Positions 29,519-59,366 of a DNA stretch of 64,000 nt are shown here, piece after piece; position 1 is the stretch's first letter; the number at the start of each line of letters is the position of its first letter. The position numbers were made by a program, and so were the translations under genes. A model generated the notes under the pieces. That model worked only from the letters and a program-made list of their open reading frames with translations, was not told the DNA's origin and did no database searches. Origin of the DNA: Vulcanisaeta souniana JCM 11219 (GTDB lineage: Archaea > Thermoproteota > Thermoprotei > Thermoproteales > Thermocladiaceae); the NCBI RefSeq assembly GCF_026000775.1, contig NZ_AP026830.1:1263056-1327055 (forward strand), written 5' to 3'.

Positions 29519-29571
29519 CTATATAGGTTATTGAGGGTAAGGCTTATTAATACATAGGGTTTAGGAAGGAC

Positions 29572-30785
29572 GTGAATTCCTTAAACCGGTACTTAGGAAA
29601 CCCAGTAAAATCGCGCTTGCCTACTCAGGAGGTCTTGATACAACAGTAGCCATTCGCTGGCTCAAGGAGAGGTTTAATGCCGAGGTTATAACAGTTACGG
29701 TGGATGTTGGGCAGGACGATGACTTAAAGGACATTGAGGAGAGGGCATATAAGGCTGGTGCGGTTAAGCACTACGCCATTGATGCGAAGAAGGACTTCGC
29801 CGAGGGACCCATAGCAATGGCAATAATGGCTAATGCTCTCTATGAGGATAAGTACCCATTGGGGACGGCACTGGCTAGGCCATTAATTGCCGAGAAGATC
29901 ATTGAAGTGGCTAAAAGGGAGGGTTGTGATGCCGTGGCTCATGGATCCACGTCCAAGGGCAATGACCAGGTCAGATTCAATGAGACGTTGATGGCGTTGG
30001 CGCCTGACCTCATGATAATAGAACCAGCGAAGATTTGGGGAATGAATAGGGCCGAGGAGGTTGAGTACGCCAAGAAACACGGTATACCAATACCCAATAT
30101 ACATAGTAGGTTTAGTATTGATGATAACCTTTGGTCAAGGAGTATAGAGGGCCATGAGACTGATGACCCTAGTGCTGAGGTCCCTGAGGACGCCTTTAAG
30201 TGGACTGTACCGCCTGAGAAGGTCAGCGAACCGCTGATTCTCGAGGTTGAGTTTAGGGAGGGCCTGCCCGTGGCTGTCAATGGTGAGAGGATGGACCTAG
30301 TTGGTTTGATATCGCTCCTAAATAAGGTGGTCGGTGCGCATGGTTTTGGCAGGGTTGATCACGTAGAGAATAGGGTCGTTGGTTTTAAGTCCAGGGAGGT
30401 ATACGAGGCACCAGCTGCATTAACGCTTATTGAGGCTCATAGGGATCTGGAGAAGCTCATCTATACGCCGCTTGAGTATAGGTTCAAGAAGTTTATTGAT
30501 CAGGAATGGACTGACCTGGTTTATGGTGGTTTATGGCATGAGCCACTGCGTGAGGAGCTTAGCGATTTCGCTAAGTCCATGAATAGGTGGGTTAGTGGTG
30601 TAGTTAAGGTTAAGGTTTTTGGTGGCTTAACGATTATTGGTAGGGAGAGCCCATACGCAAGCTATAGTAAGGATCTTGTCGATTACGTGAGTGGTTGGTA
30701 CCCAAGCGAGGAGGAGGCCAGGGGCTTCATAAGGATGCATGTACTACACTCACTAACCGCCTATAGAACCAGGCATAAAGCCTAG
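29572..30785 (+). CDS. argG: Argininosuccinate synthase, with a frame break near the start
   Basis: Joins citrulline and aspartate with ATP. The coding frame contains the essential PP-loop [18 protein letters not shown], upstream of the first in-frame start (GTG 29700), so a start at 29700 would give a dead enzyme. The body has [25 protein letters not shown] and [22 protein letters not shown]. The frame is open upstream to about 29566 but has no ATG, GTG or TTG. The promoter (CTTATTAATA, about 29543-29552) points to a leaderless GTG at 29572 that reads another frame. One extra base, for example in AAAA before TCGCGCTT, would give [12 protein letters not shown]. Either frameshifting, unusual initiation or a sequence error. 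Confidence 0.92.
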
Positions 30786-40306: not shown

Positions 40307-40483
40307 ATGCCCACAAAGATCTCCTGTCAGGTCTGTGGAGCAGACATAGAAATACCGGATGACGTACTCGATGGTGAACTAGTGAGTTGTTCAAGCTGTG
40401 GTCAGAAGTACCAGGTAACCATTCAGAACGGCTTAATACAACTAAAGCTAATTAAGGTTGAGGAGGAGGATTGGGGCGAATAA
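40307..40483 (+). CDS. lysW: LysW amino-group carrier protein
   Basis: A 58-residue acidic zinc-ribbon protein that carries aminoadipate or glutamate on its C-terminal glutamate. Zinc cysteines at 7, 10, 28 and 31 (CQVC, CSSC) and the C-terminal EDWGE motif are diagnostic. A GTG at 40301 is also in frame, but the TATA-like ACTTAAATAG is centred about 27 nt from ATG 40307, which I prefer. lysX follows at once. Confidence 0.95.
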   Translation: MPTKISCQVCGADIEIPDDVLDGELVSCSSCGQKYQVTIQNGLIQLKLIKVEEEDWGE

Positions 40484-40492
40484 TGGTTAGGG

Positions 40493-41350
40493 GTGGTTCT
40501 GATTGAAGCCATACACTTCCTTTACGATGCCATAAGGCTTGATGAGAAACTCCTTATCCGCGAGTTTGACAACCTAGGCATTAACTATAGACTGGTTAAC
40601 GCTGAGGACTTAGTATTTGAGATCCCCGGTATCAATGATGTTGGGGTGGCCTTCATAAGGACGGTAAGCCAGAGCAGGACGTACCTCCTCTCCCAAATGT
40701 ATGAGGCAATGGGCGGCAGGTCCATTAATCCATACCTATCCATAGCAATTGGTAATAATAAGGCGGTTACCCTGGCAGTACTCAATAGGGTTGGTGTACC
40801 AATACCGAACACAGTTATTACTCTTTCAAGCGAATCGGCCATAAAGGCGTTAGGTAGTGTTGGTGTTCCGGCTATTATTAAGCCTGTGCATGGTTCATGG
40901 GGTAGGCTCGTAAGTCTAGTGGGTAGTGTTGAGGACCTGGCGCTCCTTGCAAGGCATAGAAGTTCCATGGAGAATCCTCAGTACGAAACCTACTTAGTGC
41001 AGGAGTTCATCAAGAAGCCAGGTAGGGACATTAGGGTAACTGTCGTTGGAGATGAGGCTGTGGCGGCCATATACAGGTACGCAGTTAGTAATGACTGGAG
41101 AACTAACACGGCGAGGGGCGGTAAAGCTGAGGGTGTTAGGATTGATCCCGAGCTTGAGGATATAAGCGTCAGGGCAACCAAGGCAATCGGTGCTTACTAT
41201 GCTGGTGTTGATGTTGTTGAGTCTGACGGTGGTTATAAGATCCTCGAGGTCAACACGGTGCCTGAGTTCAAGAATGTACAAAGGGTCACCGGCGTTAATG
41301 TGGCTAGGCGGGTAGTGGAGCTAGTGATTGATGTAGTTAAGAGGGGTTAA
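40493..41350 (+). CDS. lysX: LysW-aminoadipate/glutamate ligase (LysX/ArgX)
   Basis: A 285-residue ATP-grasp ligase of the RimK group that joins the amino group of its substrate to the C-terminal Glu of LysW. Motifs: GNNKAVTLAVLNRVGVPIPNTV, AIIKPVHGSWGRLVSLV, VQEFIKKPGRDIRVTVVGD, NDWRTNTARGG and KILEVNTVPEFK. It starts GTG at 40493, giving MVLIEA before the first beta strand IHFLYD; the same six residues open two other genes of this cluster. An alternative ATG at 40483 overlapping the lysW stop runs out of frame after seven codons. Whether aminoadipate or glutamate is preferred is not clear from sequence. Confidence 0.92.
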   Translation: MVLIEAIHFLYDAIRLDEKLLIREFDNLGINYRLVNAEDLVFEIPGINDVGVAFIRTVSQSRTYLLSQMYEAMGGRSINPYLSIAIGNNKAVTLAVLNRVGVPIPNTVITLSSESAIKALGSVGVPAIIKPVHGSWGRLVSLVGSVEDLALLARHRSSMENPQYETYLVQEFIKKPGRDIRVTVVGDEAVAAIYRYAVSNDWRTNTARGGKAEGVRIDPELEDISVRATKAIGAYYAGVDVVESDGGYKILEVNTVPEFKNVQRVTGVNVARRVVELVIDVVKRG

Positions 41351-41352
41351 GC

Positions 41353-42426
41353 ATGCTAAGTAATGAGTCAAAGTTAAAGCTATTCATGGAGTCCCTAGGC
41401 ATATACTCACCCACGGGTAGTGAGCATGAACTCGCAGAGTTCATAATGGAGTTACTAACTATGAATGGTTTTGAGGCTAGGATTGACGATGTCGGTAATG
41501 TAATAGCCACCAGGGGTAGTGGTGAACCCAACCTCTGGCTTCATGCGCATATGGATACTGTACCGGGCTTCATAGAGGTTAGGCGTGAGGGTAATAAGAT
41601 AATTGGTAGGGGTGCCAGTGATGATAAAGGCCCATTGATGGCAATGGTGTTCGCATTCATGGAGAGCGAGTTGCCAAGAGGTACGTTGGTACTTACCGCA
41701 GTTGTCCATGAGGAGGGTGATAGTCTCGGCACGCGGCACTTGATAACGGGTAACCACGTACATAGACCCACGGGCATAATAATCGGTGAGCCCACGGGCA
41801 TAAATAAAATAGTCACTAAGTACAGGGGTAGTACTAAGCTTGAGGTCATGGTGAGGACTAGGGGAGGGCATGCATCAAACCCAGACCTGGACTCCAACTC
41901 AATACTCATCGCAATGAATGTATATAAGGATCTATGGGATGCCCTAAAGGCCGGTGTGTCCTATGAGAGCATCCTAGTGACACCAACCGTTATGAATTGC
42001 GGTGAGGCTGAGAACATGATACCGAGTAACTGCAGACTGGTACTTGACGTGAGAATACCACCTGGTAGGTCCTGTAGGGATATAGAGAACGCAATTAATG
42101 AGTTGGGAGTAAAGTATGGGGGCTCCATAACGATTAACATGAAGTGGTGCACAGAACCTGTTGAGGTGCCAATAAATAACTTGAGCGCGAGGGCTGTTTC
42201 TAGGGCCATAATCAAGGTGCTGAACGAGAGACCCACGTTAGCCAGGAAGTGGGGTACAAGTGATATGAATGAACTTGCAAGGCTCACAAGTAATATAGTT
42301 GCCTATGGACCTGGGGATGGCGCATTCTCCCATTCACTCGAGGAGTATATCCTTGTTGATGATTTTTTGAGGGCTGTGGATATATATAAGCAGGCCGTTT
42401 TTGAGTTTATGAGTATGTATAGGTAG
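41353..42426 (+). CDS. lysK: [LysW]-lysine/ornithine hydrolase
   Basis: A 357-residue M20-type zinc peptidase that frees lysine or ornithine from LysW. Zinc-site motifs: WLHAHMDTVPGF, GASDDKGPLMAMVFAF, VHEEGDSLGTRHL, IIGEPTGINKIVTKYRG, and KWGTSDMNELARL near the end. It is 2 nt downstream of lysX with the same orientation and is likely part of a lysW-lysX-lysK operon. Confidence 0.92.
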   Translation: MLSNESKLKLFMESLGIYSPTGSEHELAEFIMELLTMNGFEARIDDVGNVIATRGSGEPNLWLHAHMDTVPGFIEVRREGNKIIGRGASDDKGPLMAMVFAFMESELPRGTLVLTAVVHEEGDSLGTRHLITGNHVHRPTGIIIGEPTGINKIVTKYRGSTKLEVMVRTRGGHASNPDLDSNSILIAMNVYKDLWDALKAGVSYESILVTPTVMNCGEAENMIPSNCRLVLDVRIPPGRSCRDIENAINELGVKYGGSITINMKWCTEPVEVPINNLSARAVSRAIIKVLNERPTLARKWGTSDMNELARLTSNIVAYGPGDGAFSHSLEEYILVDDFLRAVDIYKQAVFEFMSMYR

Positions 42427-42495
42427 TTATTAGTATAAATCATTATTTATTATTAAGGGTAAAATTTATAAATTATTTACCTTATGAAGACCTGG

Positions 42496-43887
42496 GTGGT
42501 TCTCATTGAAGCGATCCCTAATCGAAACAAACCGCGATCTCCGGAAAACGATGAGCAGTTAATACGTTTACTAAGGCGTGAGGCTGTTGACCATGAGGAT
42601 ACAAATGACGTATTTAATGAGGTGATCAAGCAGTGGCCGTTACCTCCTAGGCTGATTACAGATGGTGTTAATATAGATCCTGATCCACCGGGTCGCCTTT
42701 TCATAACAGATACAACCTTTAGGGATGGTCAACAGGCCTTCTATGTTTATTACTCCATTGACAACGCAACTAGGTTGTTTAGGTTACTCTCTGATCTGGA
42801 TAATGGCAGTGGTAGAATAACCAGGAGTGAGTTCTTCCTATACACTGATAGGGACAGGAGATTAGTTAGGGCCGTTAGGGGGCTTGACCTTGAGTGGCCT
42901 AGGGTGATTGGCTGGGGTAGGGCTAGGGTTGAGGATGTTAAGTTGGTTAAGGAGGCGGGTCTTGATGAAATGGTTATGCTGATGTCGATATCAGACATAC
43001 ACATTAAGTACAAATTCAACTCCACGAGAGATAGGGTGGTTGATAAGTACCTTGAGGCTGCTGAGTACGCGTTAAGAGAGGGCATTAAACTCAGGTGTTC
43101 CCTTGAGGACGTGACTAGGTCCGACGTAGTCGGCTTCGTAATACCCTTCGTAGAGAAACTACTTAAGCTTAGCGAGAGGTTTGGCGCTGACATTGTGATA
43201 AAGTTGCCAGACACAACAGGTGTTGGTGTCCCATATCCATTTGCGCCACTGCCTTACAGCATCCCCAAACTGGTTTGGGTCCTTAGGAAGGTTCTCAATA
43301 TACCCAGTGAATTCCTTGAGTTTCATGGGCACGGTGATTACTACATGGCCGTAGCCAATGCTGTGTCGGCTTGGCTTTACGGCGCGTCGATAAATAACGG
43401 TACGCTACTTGGCATTGGGGAGAGGGCTGGTAATGTACCAATAGAGGCCCTGGTTATTTGGTATGCTAGATTAAAGGGTTCCTTTGACGGCATGAACCCC
43501 AGGGTCATTAGTAGGATAGCTGAGGAATTCAAGTCCTTCAATTACGCGGTACCCAGATACCAACCACTGGTTGGTGAGAATGCCTTCACCACGGCAGCCG
43601 GCATACACGTTGACGCCCAATTGAAGAACCCAGTGACATATCTATCAATGGACCCAGAGGTGATTGGTCGTGAGACAAGCATCATCATAGGTCCCTACTC
43701 CGGTAAGTCCTCTGTGGAGTATTGGTTGATAAGACGTGGCATTAAACCAAGCCCTGAGTTGGTTAAGGCAATGTATGAGAGGATCATGTATATCTACGAC
43801 AATGGTTTGAGGATGGAACCCCTAAACGACGGGGAACTAGAGGGGATACTTAATGATGTTAGGGGTTCTCTGAGAGGGCGGTCTTGA
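42496..43887 (+). CDS. Homocitrate synthase-type acyltransferase
   Basis: Condenses 2-oxoglutarate and acetyl-CoA in the first step of the aminoadipate route. The TIM barrel begins LFITDTTFRDGQQA. Metal-ligand HxH is in FHGHGDYYMAVANAVSAW, followed by GERAGNVPIEALV. The frame allows an ATG at 42484, but the TATA box TTTATAAAT (about 42465-42473) is centred 27 nt from GTG 42496, so the message likely starts at the GTG and the protein begins MVLIEA. An N-terminal extension of about 70 residues precedes the barrel. Isopropylmalate synthase is the main alternative; the cluster favours homocitrate. Its end overlaps lysJ convergently by 29 nt. Confidence 0.87.
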   Translation: MVLIEAIPNRNKPRSPENDEQLIRLLRREAVDHEDTNDVFNEVIKQWPLPPRLITDGVNIDPDPPGRLFITDTTFRDGQQAFYVYYSIDNATRLFRLLSDLDNGSGRITRSEFFLYTDRDRRLVRAVRGLDLEWPRVIGWGRARVEDVKLVKEAGLDEMVMLMSISDIHIKYKFNSTRDRVVDKYLEAAEYALREGIKLRCSLEDVTRSDVVGFVIPFVEKLLKLSERFGADIVIKLPDTTGVGVPYPFAPLPYSIPKLVWVLRKVLNIPSEFLEFHGHGDYYMAVANAVSAWLYGASINNGTLLGIGERAGNVPIEALVIWYARLKGSFDGMNPRVISRIAEEFKSFNYAVPRYQPLVGENAFTTAAGIHVDAQLKNPVTYLSMDPEVIGRETSIIIGPYSGKSSVEYWLIRRGIKPSPELVKAMYERIMYIYDNGLRMEPLNDGELEGILNDVRGSLRGRS

Positions 43888-45037
43888 GCGCCTTAGTTGC
43901 CATGCTTATGTCATCATTTGTTATGCAGTACGGTGGTAATAGTCTCACTGTGGTGCCTCCGGCTACACTCGTTAATAGGCCCATGGGTATCAACCTATCA
44001 ACATACGGATCAGCCCTTTTCTTAAGTTCAATCCCTAACATAAACCCCATGCCCTTAACCCTCAACACCGACTTTAAACTGCCCAATTCATCTTCAAGGA
44101 TCCTCATGAACTCCTCACCCATGGTTCTTACCCTCCCAGGCACATCATCATTAAGCAGGGTCTCAACGCTCGCCTTAGCTGCAGCCATAACCAGTGGGTT
44201 ACCCGCAAAGGTACTTCCATGCTCCCCGGGTTCAAACACATCACCAAATTCCCTCCTAATCACGGTTATTCCTATTGGTAATCCACCAGCCACTGATTTA
44301 CCTGCCGTGAATATGTCGGGCTCCACGCCGTAATTCTCAAAGGCCCAAACACGCCCAGTCCTCCCAAAACCGCTCTGGACCTCGTCAAATATCAACAGGA
44401 CATTCCTCTCCTTAGTTACCTGCCTAAGCGCCCTGAGGAACTCAGGCCTCGCGGGATTCACGCCGCCCTCGCCCTGTATTGGTTCAACAATCACGGCAGC
44501 CAAATCCTCAGTCACTAACTTGTCCACCTGGTCAACGGCATTAAACGGCGCAAACCTAACCTTATATGGCATTGGTTCGAATGCCCTCCTGTACTTCTCA
44601 TTACCGGTCACGGAGAGTGAGCCCATTGTCCTACCATGGAAAGAATTGAGAAATGCCAGGAACTCAACCTTCTTGCTGATTTTCCTGGCGATCTTTAGGG
44701 CGGTCTCCACGGTCTCAGTACCGCTATTCTGAAGGAAGACCTTACCGAAACCACTTGGTACGATTTTCATGAATTCCCTAATGAATTCAGCCCTTGTCTC
44801 GTTATAAAACGTTAATGAGACAGTGATTATCTTATCTAACTGCTCCTTAATTGCGTTTATTATCCTTGGGTTTCTATGGCCTAGGAAGGCGACACCGAAA
44901 CCGGTGTGCATGTCGAGATACTTATTATTATTTGAGTCCCATACATACTGCATATGGCCCCTGACAATGTTCAAGGGCTTCTTGCTGTAGTATCTCGCCA
45001 GGTACTCGTCCTCAAACCTAAGTAGGTCATTACCCAT
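43859..45037 (-). CDS. lysJ: [LysW]-aminoadipate/glutamate semialdehyde aminotransferase
   Basis: About 392 residues, class III PLP aminotransferase. Motifs: HTGFGVAFLGHRNPRI, FLQNSGTETVETALKIARK, LIFDEVQSGFGRTGRVWAFENYG, and the PLP lysine in FTAGKSVAGGLPIG. A near-perfect Shine-Dalgarno GGAGGTGAT lies 6 nt before ATG 45037, so I prefer that over a TTG at 45058. It is downstream of argX on the same strand (7 nt gap). It gives LysW-bound lysine or ornithine. Confidence 0.93.
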   Translation of the reverse strand: MGNDLLRFEDEYLARYYSKKPLNIVRGHMQYVWDSNNNKYLDMHTGFGVAFLGHRNPRIINAIKEQLDKIITVSLTFYNETRAEFIREFMKIVPSGFGKVFLQNSGTETVETALKIARKISKKVEFLAFLNSFHGRTMGSLSVTGNEKYRRAFEPMPYKVRFAPFNAVDQVDKLVTEDLAAVIVEPIQGEGGVNPARPEFLRALRQVTKERNVLLIFDEVQSGFGRTGRVWAFENYGVEPDIFTAGKSVAGGLPIGITVIRREFGDVFEPGEHGSTFAGNPLVMAAAKASVETLLNDDVPGRVRTMGEEFMRILEDELGSLKSVLRVKGMGFMLGIELKKRADPYVDRLIPMGLLTSVAGGTTVRLLPPYCITNDDISMATKALKTALSENP

Positions 45038-45044
45038 TGCGTGA

Positions 45045-45889
45045 TCACCTCCTGGCAATATTTAACATATACTCGGCTATTTTACGCGCAATATTGATTC
45101 CAGTGGCGTTCATTAGGCCCTTGAACTCGGGTATTGCATTGACCTCATTGACCAAGTAGCCATGTTCATTACTATGAAGTAAATCAACGCCTGCGTAATC
45201 AAGGTCTAAGGCCTTAACAGCCTTAATGGCGGTTTCATAGGCATCGCCATCAAGCTTAATGGCGCGTGCAATACCGCCTCTTGCCACATTACTCCTCCAG
45301 TCACCAGGGCTTGGCTTCCTAACCATTGATGCAACCACCTCATCACCAATAACGAAGACCCTATAGTCAGTGCCGTCACCAATGAATGGCTGTACCATGG
45401 ATATCCTCGAATACGCGTCGCCGAGGGATTTATGCCTAAGCAGGAGGGTTAACTCATCGTTATTGTTAGCAAGGCTCACCAGCCTACCCCATGAGCCATG
45501 TATAGGCTTAATGACCACCGGGTAATTAATTCCATCGTACTGTGGGTTCGTGGAGAGTAGGAGCCTTGAAGGAACCACGGAAATACCAGTCCTAGCCAGT
45601 ATGGCTATCGCGATCGCCTTATTCCAGGAATTCTCTATAGCCAGTCCCTTGTTTATAGTCATAATGCCATGAATATTTAGTACACGGGCAATTAACCCAG
45701 CCTTCACATGGCTCATTAGTCTAACAAGCACAATGCCTAAGTCCTCGCCTTCTTCGTCCAATCTCAATGATATATTATCGACATTAACCAAGTTAACCCT
45801 TACATTAAGTTCCCTAAGTTCATTGAGGATTAGTTTTTCTTCGATCCTCATTGTGTCATGAAGTATGGAAACCGTTCCATCACTCCCAC
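45045..45889 (-). CDS. argX: Second LysW ligase (ArgX/LysX), with a frame break at the 5' end
   Basis: An ATP-grasp ligase. Main motifs: NSWNKAIAIAILARTGISVVPSRLL, VVIKPIHGSWGRLVSLA, VQPFIGDGTDYRVFVIGDE, GDWRSNVARGG and YLVNEVNAIPEFK. The first in-frame ATG (45851, MRIEEKL) would delete the first beta strand, yet the frame continues upstream as VSILHDT, matching IHFLYDA of lysX. No in-frame start exists there. A leaderless GTG at 45889, 25 nt from TATA, reads MGVMERF in another frame, which parallels MVLIEAI of lysX. One extra T in GGTTTCC would join them. Two LysW ligases in one cluster suggest separate lysine and arginine arms. Confidence 0.88.
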
Positions 45890-46004
45890 AGGTTGTTCCC
45901 TAAATACACTATATAAATGTTTCCCCACATAACAATAACATGCTTATAGTCCCTCCTAATAATAAAGAAAATATTTAATAACCCAAGGGCAGCGGTGAGC
46001 ATGG

Positions 46005-46748
46005 GTGGTTCTCATTGAAGCGGAACCCACGACCAAGCAAGACCTCACGCTCGTACTCAGTAAGTACGGACCAGTAGAGCAGAGAATACATAGTGAATTA
46101 TCGGGTAGGGGCTTTAGGGTAGGTGTGTTAAATACAATGGAGAGCGAGGTAAGGCATAGCCCTGGAAAGGCCGTGCTTCTCCTGGACGACGTGTTCGAAG
46201 CCTTTATAATCTCGAACTTATTTAGTGAAACACTAAACCCATATGACGCCTATGCAATGGCGGTAAATAGGGTGTTGCTGTTCAGGGAATTGAGCGAGTT
46301 GGGTTACCCAACGCCAGACGTGAGCGTTGCACTGAACCCAAATGTGGTTGGTAGGGTTATTAGCAGTGTTGGTAAAACCTACATGGCCACGCCATCGGCT
46401 TCCCTTGGTCTTGACGGTATAGTGACCACGTGGGAGGGCGGTAAATCAGTGGCTGAGCATAGGATGTATATGGCGAATCCCCTCGCCAGGATCAACATGC
46501 TTATGAAAGCCCCCAGTAAGATCATTAATGTCCAGGTAATCGGTAACAACTGCATTGGGTGTGGAGACTTGGGGACCTGGGTCCTTAGGTTATCAAGGAG
46601 TATTAAGTGCCTGATGTGCACGTATATAATTGGTATTTATGAAGATGAGCAAGTGATCCTGGGCGTGGATCCCAGGGTTGAGTTAACGACAAGCATTGTG
46701 GAACCCATGGTGAATGCAATAATGGGGTGGTACAATGGCGAGGGATAG
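46005..46748 (+). CDS. Degenerate LysX/RimK-like ATP-grasp paralogue with four cysteines
   Basis: A 247-residue protein that aligns with LysX over most of its length (LTLVLSKYGPVEQRIHSELSGRGFRVGVL; LNPYDAYAMAVNRVLLFRELSELGYPTPD). The ATP-grasp core KPxxGSWGR is replaced by ATPSASLGLDG and the catalytic NDWRxNxARGG is gone. Instead cysteines sit at 183, 186, 202 and 205 (CIGC, CLMC), a likely zinc ribbon. So it is probably not a ligase. It begins MVLIEA, the nucleotides identical to those of the homocitrate synthase start. A leaderless ATG at 46001 (25 nt from TATA) would read only MGGSH, so the GTG at 46005 is assumed. It overlaps argC by 14 nt. Confidence 0.72.
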   Translation: MVLIEAEPTTKQDLTLVLSKYGPVEQRIHSELSGRGFRVGVLNTMESEVRHSPGKAVLLLDDVFEAFIISNLFSETLNPYDAYAMAVNRVLLFRELSELGYPTPDVSVALNPNVVGRVISSVGKTYMATPSASLGLDGIVTTWEGGKSVAEHRMYMANPLARINMLMKAPSKIINVQVIGNNCIGCGDLGTWVLRLSRSIKCLMCTYIIGIYEDEQVILGVDPRVELTTSIVEPMVNAIMGWYNGEG

Positions 46749-59352: not shown

Positions 59353-59366
59353 GACTGGGTTTCCAT
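59349..59366 (-). other. Micro-ORF METQS overlapping the thrC start
   Basis: Five codons (ATG GAA ACC CAG TCA) and TGA. The ATG at 59366 lies about 24-26 nt from TATA-like TAAATAATA, the expected place for a leaderless start. The TGA overlaps the thrC ATG in an ATGA. This layout fits termination-reinitiation coupling. Confidence 0.38.

Follow-up and report, generated by a model that had tools for sequence, protein, structure and literature searches.

Why should three genes of one archaeal LysW cluster begin with the same twenty nucleotides? The question arises from a 64,000-nucleotide stretch of DNA (the window, meaning that whole stretch), in which the element GGGTGGTTCTCATTGAAGCG stands at the starts of lysX, of homocitrate synthase and of a LysX paralogue. 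We believe that a programmed frameshift switch begins at this element, one that would sense starvation and turn the enzyme on when the cognate aminoacyl-tRNA is scarce. From sequence evidence we put the probability of this at roughly 86%. The conserved feature, judging from the alignments, is an out-of-frame start codon together with a codon for the end product of the pathway.

The element at three LysW-cluster genes

The genes and the parts of the element are placed as follows.

40491..40510, + strand: element at lysX, with GGTGG at 40492-40496, ATT at 40502-40504 in the enzyme frame, TTG at 40503-40505 in the +1 frame and the Lys codon AAG at 40506-40508
40493..41350, + strand: lysX, a LysW-dependent ATP-grasp ligase (TIGR02144, 321.9 bits, cut-off 275.6), with an in-frame GTG at 40493
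40503..40535, + strand: dead-end 0-frame open reading frame (ORF) of lysX, TTG AAG CCA TAC ACT TCC TTT ACG ATG CCA TAA
42465..42472, + strand: TATA box TTTATAAA of homocitrate synthase, its centre about 27 nucleotides (nt) 5' of the element
42494..42513, + strand: element at homocitrate synthase, with GGTGG, AUUG (TTG at 42506-42508) and the Lys codon AAG at 42509-42511
42496..43887, + strand: homocitrate synthase (HMGL-like, HCS_D2; PF00682, PF22617)
46003..46022, + strand: element at the LysX paralogue, with GGTGG, AUUG (TTG at 46015-46017), the Lys codon AAG at 46018-46020 and then the Arg codon CGG at 46021-46023
46005..46748, + strand: LysX paralogue, ATP-grasp-like, with no Pfam match and weak TIGR02144 similarity

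The preliminary description was right that copies mark three LysW-cluster gene starts: GGGTGGTTCTCATTGAAGCG occurs without a mismatch at 42494-42513 and 46003-46022, and with two at 40491-40510. With up to 3 mismatches it is found three times in the window and not once in 100 shuffles. When GGTGGTTCTNATTGAAGC was searched against the whole 2.43-Mb genome, again with up to 3 mismatches, only the three LysW-cluster copies were perfect; no further copy lies within 1 mismatch, and the next-best match, with 2, leads into a frame full of stops. The element recurs at orthologue starts across the window genus, and recognisable versions stand on LysX of two other genera. The link to these gene starts holds in the genome and its relatives, with no closer copies elsewhere. 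A layout peculiar to the LysW pathway does not hold, as LeuA has it too.

That layout is a Shine-Dalgarno-like GGTGG, able to pair with the 16S 3' end GATCACCTCC, then A-TTG, then invariably a Lys codon AAR, with the TTG in the +1 frame relative to the enzyme. In an alignment of starts (14 loci of homocitrate synthase, 12 of LysX, 11 of the paralogue) the core ATTGAAR is invariant except for one GTTGAAA, and it is usually preceded by GG[T/G]G[G/A]TT and a variable triplet. TTG-AAR is present in 12/12 lysX orthologues (L067-L078), in 14/14 of homocitrate synthase (L097-L110) and in all 11 genus orthologues of the paralogue, where CGG follows in 9 and L045 reads GTTG-AAA-CGG. An in-frame ATG, GTG or TTG is often wholly absent from the orthologues of the latter two genes, several of homocitrate synthase among them.

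The differences between the copies had been taken as synonymous in a shared MVLIEA frame. In general they are not. The middle codon differs between species (CTN, CCN, ATC, GTA, GTC, ACG or TCT), making residue 3 L, P, I, V, T or S; the GTG has become GGG in several homocitrate synthase orthologues; and three orthologues of the LysX paralogue have an in-frame TGA two codons 5' of the ATT, which leaves them with no in-frame ATG, GTG or TTG. Since residue 3 and the GTG vary while ATTGAAR is kept, the constraint acts on the nucleotides and not on the peptide. The TIGR02144 match in lysX begins at residue 7, past the MVLIEA that the element encodes.

The homocitrate synthase element starts about 27 nt past the centre of its TATA box, a spacing found in the genus orthologues as well, so it is the predicted 5' end of the mRNA. 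The element of the paralogue is also close to a predicted 5' end. Two roles had been suggested, and the first, a regulatory element at the mRNA 5' end, survives, since the element lies at a predicted 5' end and tracks biosynthetic genes; the second, an N-terminal docking peptide, does not, and is weighed below with the other rivals. An Rfam search of the window found only RNase P and nothing at the element; no aptamer was seen in a 5' leader, and the predicted leaders are 0-12 nt long. A palindromic operator was rejected as well, since the element lacks the symmetry and its copy at lysX sits within an operon and has no TATA box. A possible likeness of ATTGAA(A/G) to CRISPR repeats was also considered.

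Cognate codons in other pathways and genera

We compared the window genus (g1) with other genera (g2, g3) and with a Pyrobaculum-type family (f2). Judging from gene content, g1 is probably Vulcanisaeta, g2 probably Caldivirga and f2 probably Pyrobaculum/Thermoproteus; the results do not depend on the naming. The hypothesis had already been written down when the evidence for Leu, Trp, Val, Thr and ArgG was gathered.

If the sensor codon matters, the leucine gene should carry leucine, and LeuA does. The cognate Leu codon is there in 32/32 genomes, as A-TTG-CTC in 19 from three genera and as ATG NNN TCG GGG CTC in 13 of f2. The first form reads GGTGGNTTAG-ATTG-CTC. An in-frame TAG lies immediately 5' of the ATT in 13/14 genomes of g1 and g2, and in g1 the TTG frame stops within 4-6 codons, so that any shift is confined to that gap. 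LeuA was also the top match in an unbiased scan of 2.11 of the 2.43 Mb of its own genome for coding sequence lying 5' of the earliest codon that could start its frame. A contig scan for LeuA returned only distant taxa. Taken as an outgroup control, these relatives from other phyla begin with a canonical in-frame start in 77/80 cases. Three LeuA-family genes, L299 (Odinarchaeia), L315 (Methanohalophilus) and L318 (Methanosarcinales), have no in-frame ATG, GTG or TTG upstream of DTTLRDGEQ and no out-of-frame one nearby; their starts are possibly rare codons such as ATC or ATT, or there may be sequence errors.

The arginine and threonine genes of the window carry cognate codons of their own.

45872..45880, - strand: ArgX start, ATG at 45880-45878, GAA, CGG (Arg, 45874-45872), out of frame by +1; the enzyme frame reads GAT GGA ACG GTT TCC
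45045..45881, - strand: argX (ATP-grasp); the first in-frame ATG of this copy is 7 codons inside the conserved N terminus
59358..59366, - strand: thrC start, ATG at 59366-59364, GAA, ACC (Thr, 59360-59358), out of frame by +1
29572..29589, + strand: argG start, leaderless GTG AAT TCC TTA AAC CGG (Arg, 29587-29589), slip site C-TTA-AAC
29565..30785, + strand: argG, argininosuccinate synthase (TIGR00032, 464 bits, cut-off 268), an open frame with no usable in-frame start

ArgX had been credited with a weaker, out-of-frame version of the element, MGVMER. It is real and conserved, with ATG GAA CGG or CGA in 12/12 loci (L037-L048), and it was this version that led to the mechanism; CGG is 1% of the Arg codons in this genome. 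The argG enzyme lies in the -1 frame (GAA TTC CTT AAA CCG), its first in-frame start comes no earlier than codon 46, and the unbiased scan returned this gene too. The cognate Arg codon of ArgG is present in 3/3 (+1 by pattern). ATG GAA ACC opens thrC in 3/3 genus genomes examined. Beyond the extracted loci, orthologues of ArgG, ThrC and the Trp genes were judged by coordinates and short motif matches only. For isoleucine, citramalate synthase (CimA, TIGR00977) has ATG...GAA-ATC in 3/3 genomes; the enzyme occupies the +1 frame and follows at once on an in-frame TAG. This fits a +1 hungry shift, resting on three close genomes.

The Pyrobaculum-type family has a second architecture. LysX, homocitrate synthase, LeuA, ThrC and ArgG open there on a leaderless ATG and carry a GGGG run; the frame of this ATG soon meets a stop, and the enzyme is encoded in the -1 frame. 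LysX has ATG GGG AAA in 13/13, homocitrate synthase ATG NNN TCG GGG AAA in 3/3 (+4 by pattern), ArgG ATG..TCG GGG CGA in 2/2 and ThrC ATG..TCG GGG ACR in 9/9 (+3 by pattern). At the GGG-AAA sites the enzyme frame always encodes Glu by GAA, yet GAA makes up only 28% of Glu codons in this genome. Acetolactate synthase (ALS, TIGR00118), found by a scan that ignored the next codon, has GGG-GTN and GGG-CTC in series, plus GGG-ATC in 2/3: valine, leucine and isoleucine. Threonine is the usual precursor of isoleucine, and in five ThrC copies (L049, L050, L054, L058, L063) a second slip-like GGG-ATT (Ile) stands 5' of GGG-ACR (Thr).

The LysX paralogue of this family has GGG before AAA, CCA and CGA (Lys, Pro, Arg), in either order, in 12/14 genomes; proline can be obtained from ornithine in these archaea (PMC3189178). 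The paralogue likely serves both the Lys and the Arg branch. The window copy (46005-46748) and its relatives in this family (L049-L063) also have cysteine pairs, CIGC...CLMC; together with the sensor codons for Lys/Arg(/Pro), these hint at a regulator or a shared step of the LysW pathway.

A pattern that leaves the next codon free, TATA-N18-28-ATG-NNN-TCGGGG, was run on 12 f2 genomes and gave 38 distinct sites, 34 of them on a gene making the amino acid encoded next: CTC at LeuA (11), AAA at homocitrate synthase (4), CGA at ArgG (2), ACA at ThrC (4) and TGG at Trp genes (13). The genes at the TGG sites had no identity at first; that they would be tryptophan genes was predicted and then checked with the TrpB, TrpE and TrpD proteins, which placed the 13 at starts of TrpB in 4 genomes, TrpD in 8 and TrpE in 1. 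The other 2 of the 15 TGG sites lie on the opposite strand just beyond TrpE, and the remaining 2 of the 38 are followed by CCC and TTC. At G032:607895+, G038:972850- and G025:629491- the pattern has either CCC next (a proline gene?) or TGG opposite the TrpE strand. The Vulcanisaeta TrpA start ATGG (G000, about 1331530, minus strand) overlaps a TGG that is out of frame and is read from a GTG further 5'; seen in one genome, this could be a Trp version of the switch. Other searches were less productive: a motif-regex search for biosynthetic genes found few, and TATA-regex scans of the window's own genome for out-of-frame starts were too noisy to use.

Given codon usage, the joint chance of cognate codons in 18 family-by-clade events is about 1e-22, a figure that is post hoc and ignores shared ancestry. 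A conserved A-site codon for the limiting amino acid is found in all families as well as in the 34 pattern sites. The alignments themselves display the out-of-frame starts, the missing in-frame ones, the invariant cognate codons, the short dead-end frames and the confined overlap.

A proposed hungry-codon frameshift and its rivals

We infer from these features that frameshifting occurs, and with it the direction of its response to tRNA charging and its P-site geometry. Initiation would take place at a start codon +1 to the enzyme frame, with the codon for the end product placed just after it or after a slip codon. When charged cognate tRNA is plentiful the codon would be read, the ribosome would meet a stop a few to about 20 codons on, and a dead-end peptide would result. 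When it is scarce the A site would stand empty, and the P-site tRNA would re-pair one base back (-1) and enter the enzyme frame. For the Vulcanisaeta-like layout of the window, the tRNA in the P site would be the initiator on AUUG, where UUG and AUU each match 2/3 anticodon bases, and the sensor would be AAR (Lys) on LysX, homocitrate synthase and the paralogue or CUC (Leu) on LeuA. The presumed sites are AUG-GAA-[CGG or ACC] on ArgX and ThrC, C-UUA-AAC-[CGG] on ArgG and a leaderless AUG...(G)GGG-[cognate codon] in the Pyrobaculum-type relatives. Slip sites in series would act as OR gates, for Val, Leu and Ile on acetolactate synthase and for Lys, Pro and Arg on the LysX paralogue. Slippage of one tRNA beside a vacant A site is established biochemistry and requires no stimulatory structure (PMC8211752).

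Re-pairing in the new frame would be possible for GGG to GGG within GGGG (f2), for UUG to AUU with the initiator and for C-UUA-AAC (ArgG), and weaker for GAA to GGA. No usable in-frame start is present in LeuA, ArgG, the LysX, homocitrate synthase, ThrC and ALS genes of f2, or several genus homocitrate synthases and paralogues.

Several points weigh against the switch. The absence of an in-frame start is not strict in the three window genes, which retain an in-frame GTG, as do all genus LysX copies, and the window thrC has a nearby in-frame ATG at 59352-59350. Direct initiation at these codons could yield some enzyme, so the dependence of the three genes on a shift is less certain than that of LeuA. 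The GTG overlaps GGTGG and may allow leaky initiation, and dependence on the shift still seems likely. Compared with GGG to GGG, the slip is less obvious where tRNA-Glu would re-pair from GAA to GGA (ArgX and ThrC) and where CimA would shift by +1. Counts over close species are not independent, and most families were picked as biosynthetic; ALS and Trp came from codon-agnostic searches. Finally, in-frame starts are found in Vulcanisaeta ALS, in IlvD, HisG, HisC and TrpC, in g3 LysX and in f2 ArgX, so the design is gene-specific.

The best surviving rival is a non-canonical AUU start with GGTGG as a Shine-Dalgarno sequence six bases 5' and no frameshift, which we consider unlikely. The ATT is nearly invariant in TTG-type genes, the spacing of the GGTGG is ideal and the 16S 3' end can pair with it. 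What such a start leaves unexplained is the cognate codon in the TTG frame, AAR on the Lys genes and CTC on LeuA. Moreover L045 has GUU, no AUU stands at the slip in ArgX, ThrC, ArgG or any f2 gene, and the pattern of an infC-like AUU start was not found. It should be noted that the initiator anticodon matches 2/3 bases of AUUG whichever register is taken, so that initiation at AUU and slippage by -1 may be two views of one bistable start, with the register captured on AUUG set by which aminoacyl-tRNA arrives.

Classic attenuation, in which the mini-ORF is a leader peptide and stalling at the cognate codon alters access to a separate in-frame start, is less probable still. Short 0-frame ORFs with cognate codons do exist, as it demands, but LeuA, ArgG, f2 LysX and others have no separate in-frame ATG, GTG or TTG near the conserved N terminus. 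The two frames overlap, the leaders are too short for terminator and antiterminator folding, and the pattern of attenuation was not found. A conserved docking peptide MVLIEA for LysW gains something from the in-frame GTG of the three window genes and is very improbable nonetheless: its sequence is variable, the GTG is replaced by GGG in some orthologues, an in-frame TGA interrupts it in three paralogues, and LeuA, unrelated to LysW, has the same layout with CTC for AAG. Transcriptional slippage or RNA editing on G runs would suit the GGGG slip sites of f2, but we can practically discount it because the TTG-AAG, GAA-CGG and TTG-CTC genes have no homopolymer and the cognate codons would go unexplained.

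It is also probable, we think, that a whole order of heat-loving archaea controls amino-acid biosynthesis through such frameshifts, using no regulator, riboswitch or leader peptide. The frame itself would be the switch, set by how far the cognate tRNA is charged at the start codon or beside it. This would apply to Lys, Arg, Leu, Thr, Ile, Val and Trp at the least, and slip sites in series would combine several inputs as OR gates, Val-Leu-Ile in acetolactate synthase and Lys-Pro-Arg in the LysX paralogue.

Known systems and minor observations

Leader-peptide attenuation governs the trp, his, ilv and leu operons of bacteria. There too the sensor is a set of cognate codons read by the ribosome, with several codons for shared pathways; here, however, a separate leader is lacking, as are terminator and antiterminator, the enzyme gene itself has the sensor codon at its start, and what would change is the reading frame. 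The nearest logic is that of bacterial prfB (release factor 2), an autoregulatory +1 frameshift with a short 0-frame ORF, an obligatory shift and slow A-site decoding by a factor whose supply the gene controls (PMC5009743). It differs in sensing release factor at UGA and not aminoacyl-tRNA at a sense codon, in shifting +1 where the shifts here would be mostly -1, and in serving one gene and not many pathways. Hungry-codon frameshifting as described by Gallant shares the one-tRNA P-site slippage, the vacant A site under aminoacyl-tRNA limitation and the lack of a stimulatory structure (PMC5009743, PMC8211752), but it is known as a laboratory or error phenomenon, and a review states that no starvation-specific trans-frame proteins are known for sense codons (PMC5009743). 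The fucA1 gene of S. solfataricus likewise has a programmed -1 frameshift, the one archaeal case reported by the time of PMC8211752, at an internal site in a glycosidase gene and with no amino-acid sensing. A full-text literature search, with subscription journals mostly outside its reach, returned no report of natural control of this kind.

If the switch is real, it would add a new class to the known forms of gene control; going by what the review says (PMC5009743), it would also be the first natural hungry sense-codon frameshift to give a starvation-specific product. The known archaeal -1 programmed frameshifts would rise from one to dozens of genes, and there would be an explanation for many gene starts that are missing or misplaced in the annotation of Thermoproteales. 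Reading the sensor codon would also link genes of unknown function to the amino acid they serve, as with Lys, Arg and Pro for the LysX paralogue.

Two further observations were made. The RNase P RNA of the window (RF02357, 9017-9221, + strand) is truncated, as expected for the group. The sequence GGTGGTNNTATTGAAGCTTGC follows a TATA box at a short ORF that reads MKLAIIVGANNV from TTG (G003:C3:41199, G010:C21:6609; L036, L021).

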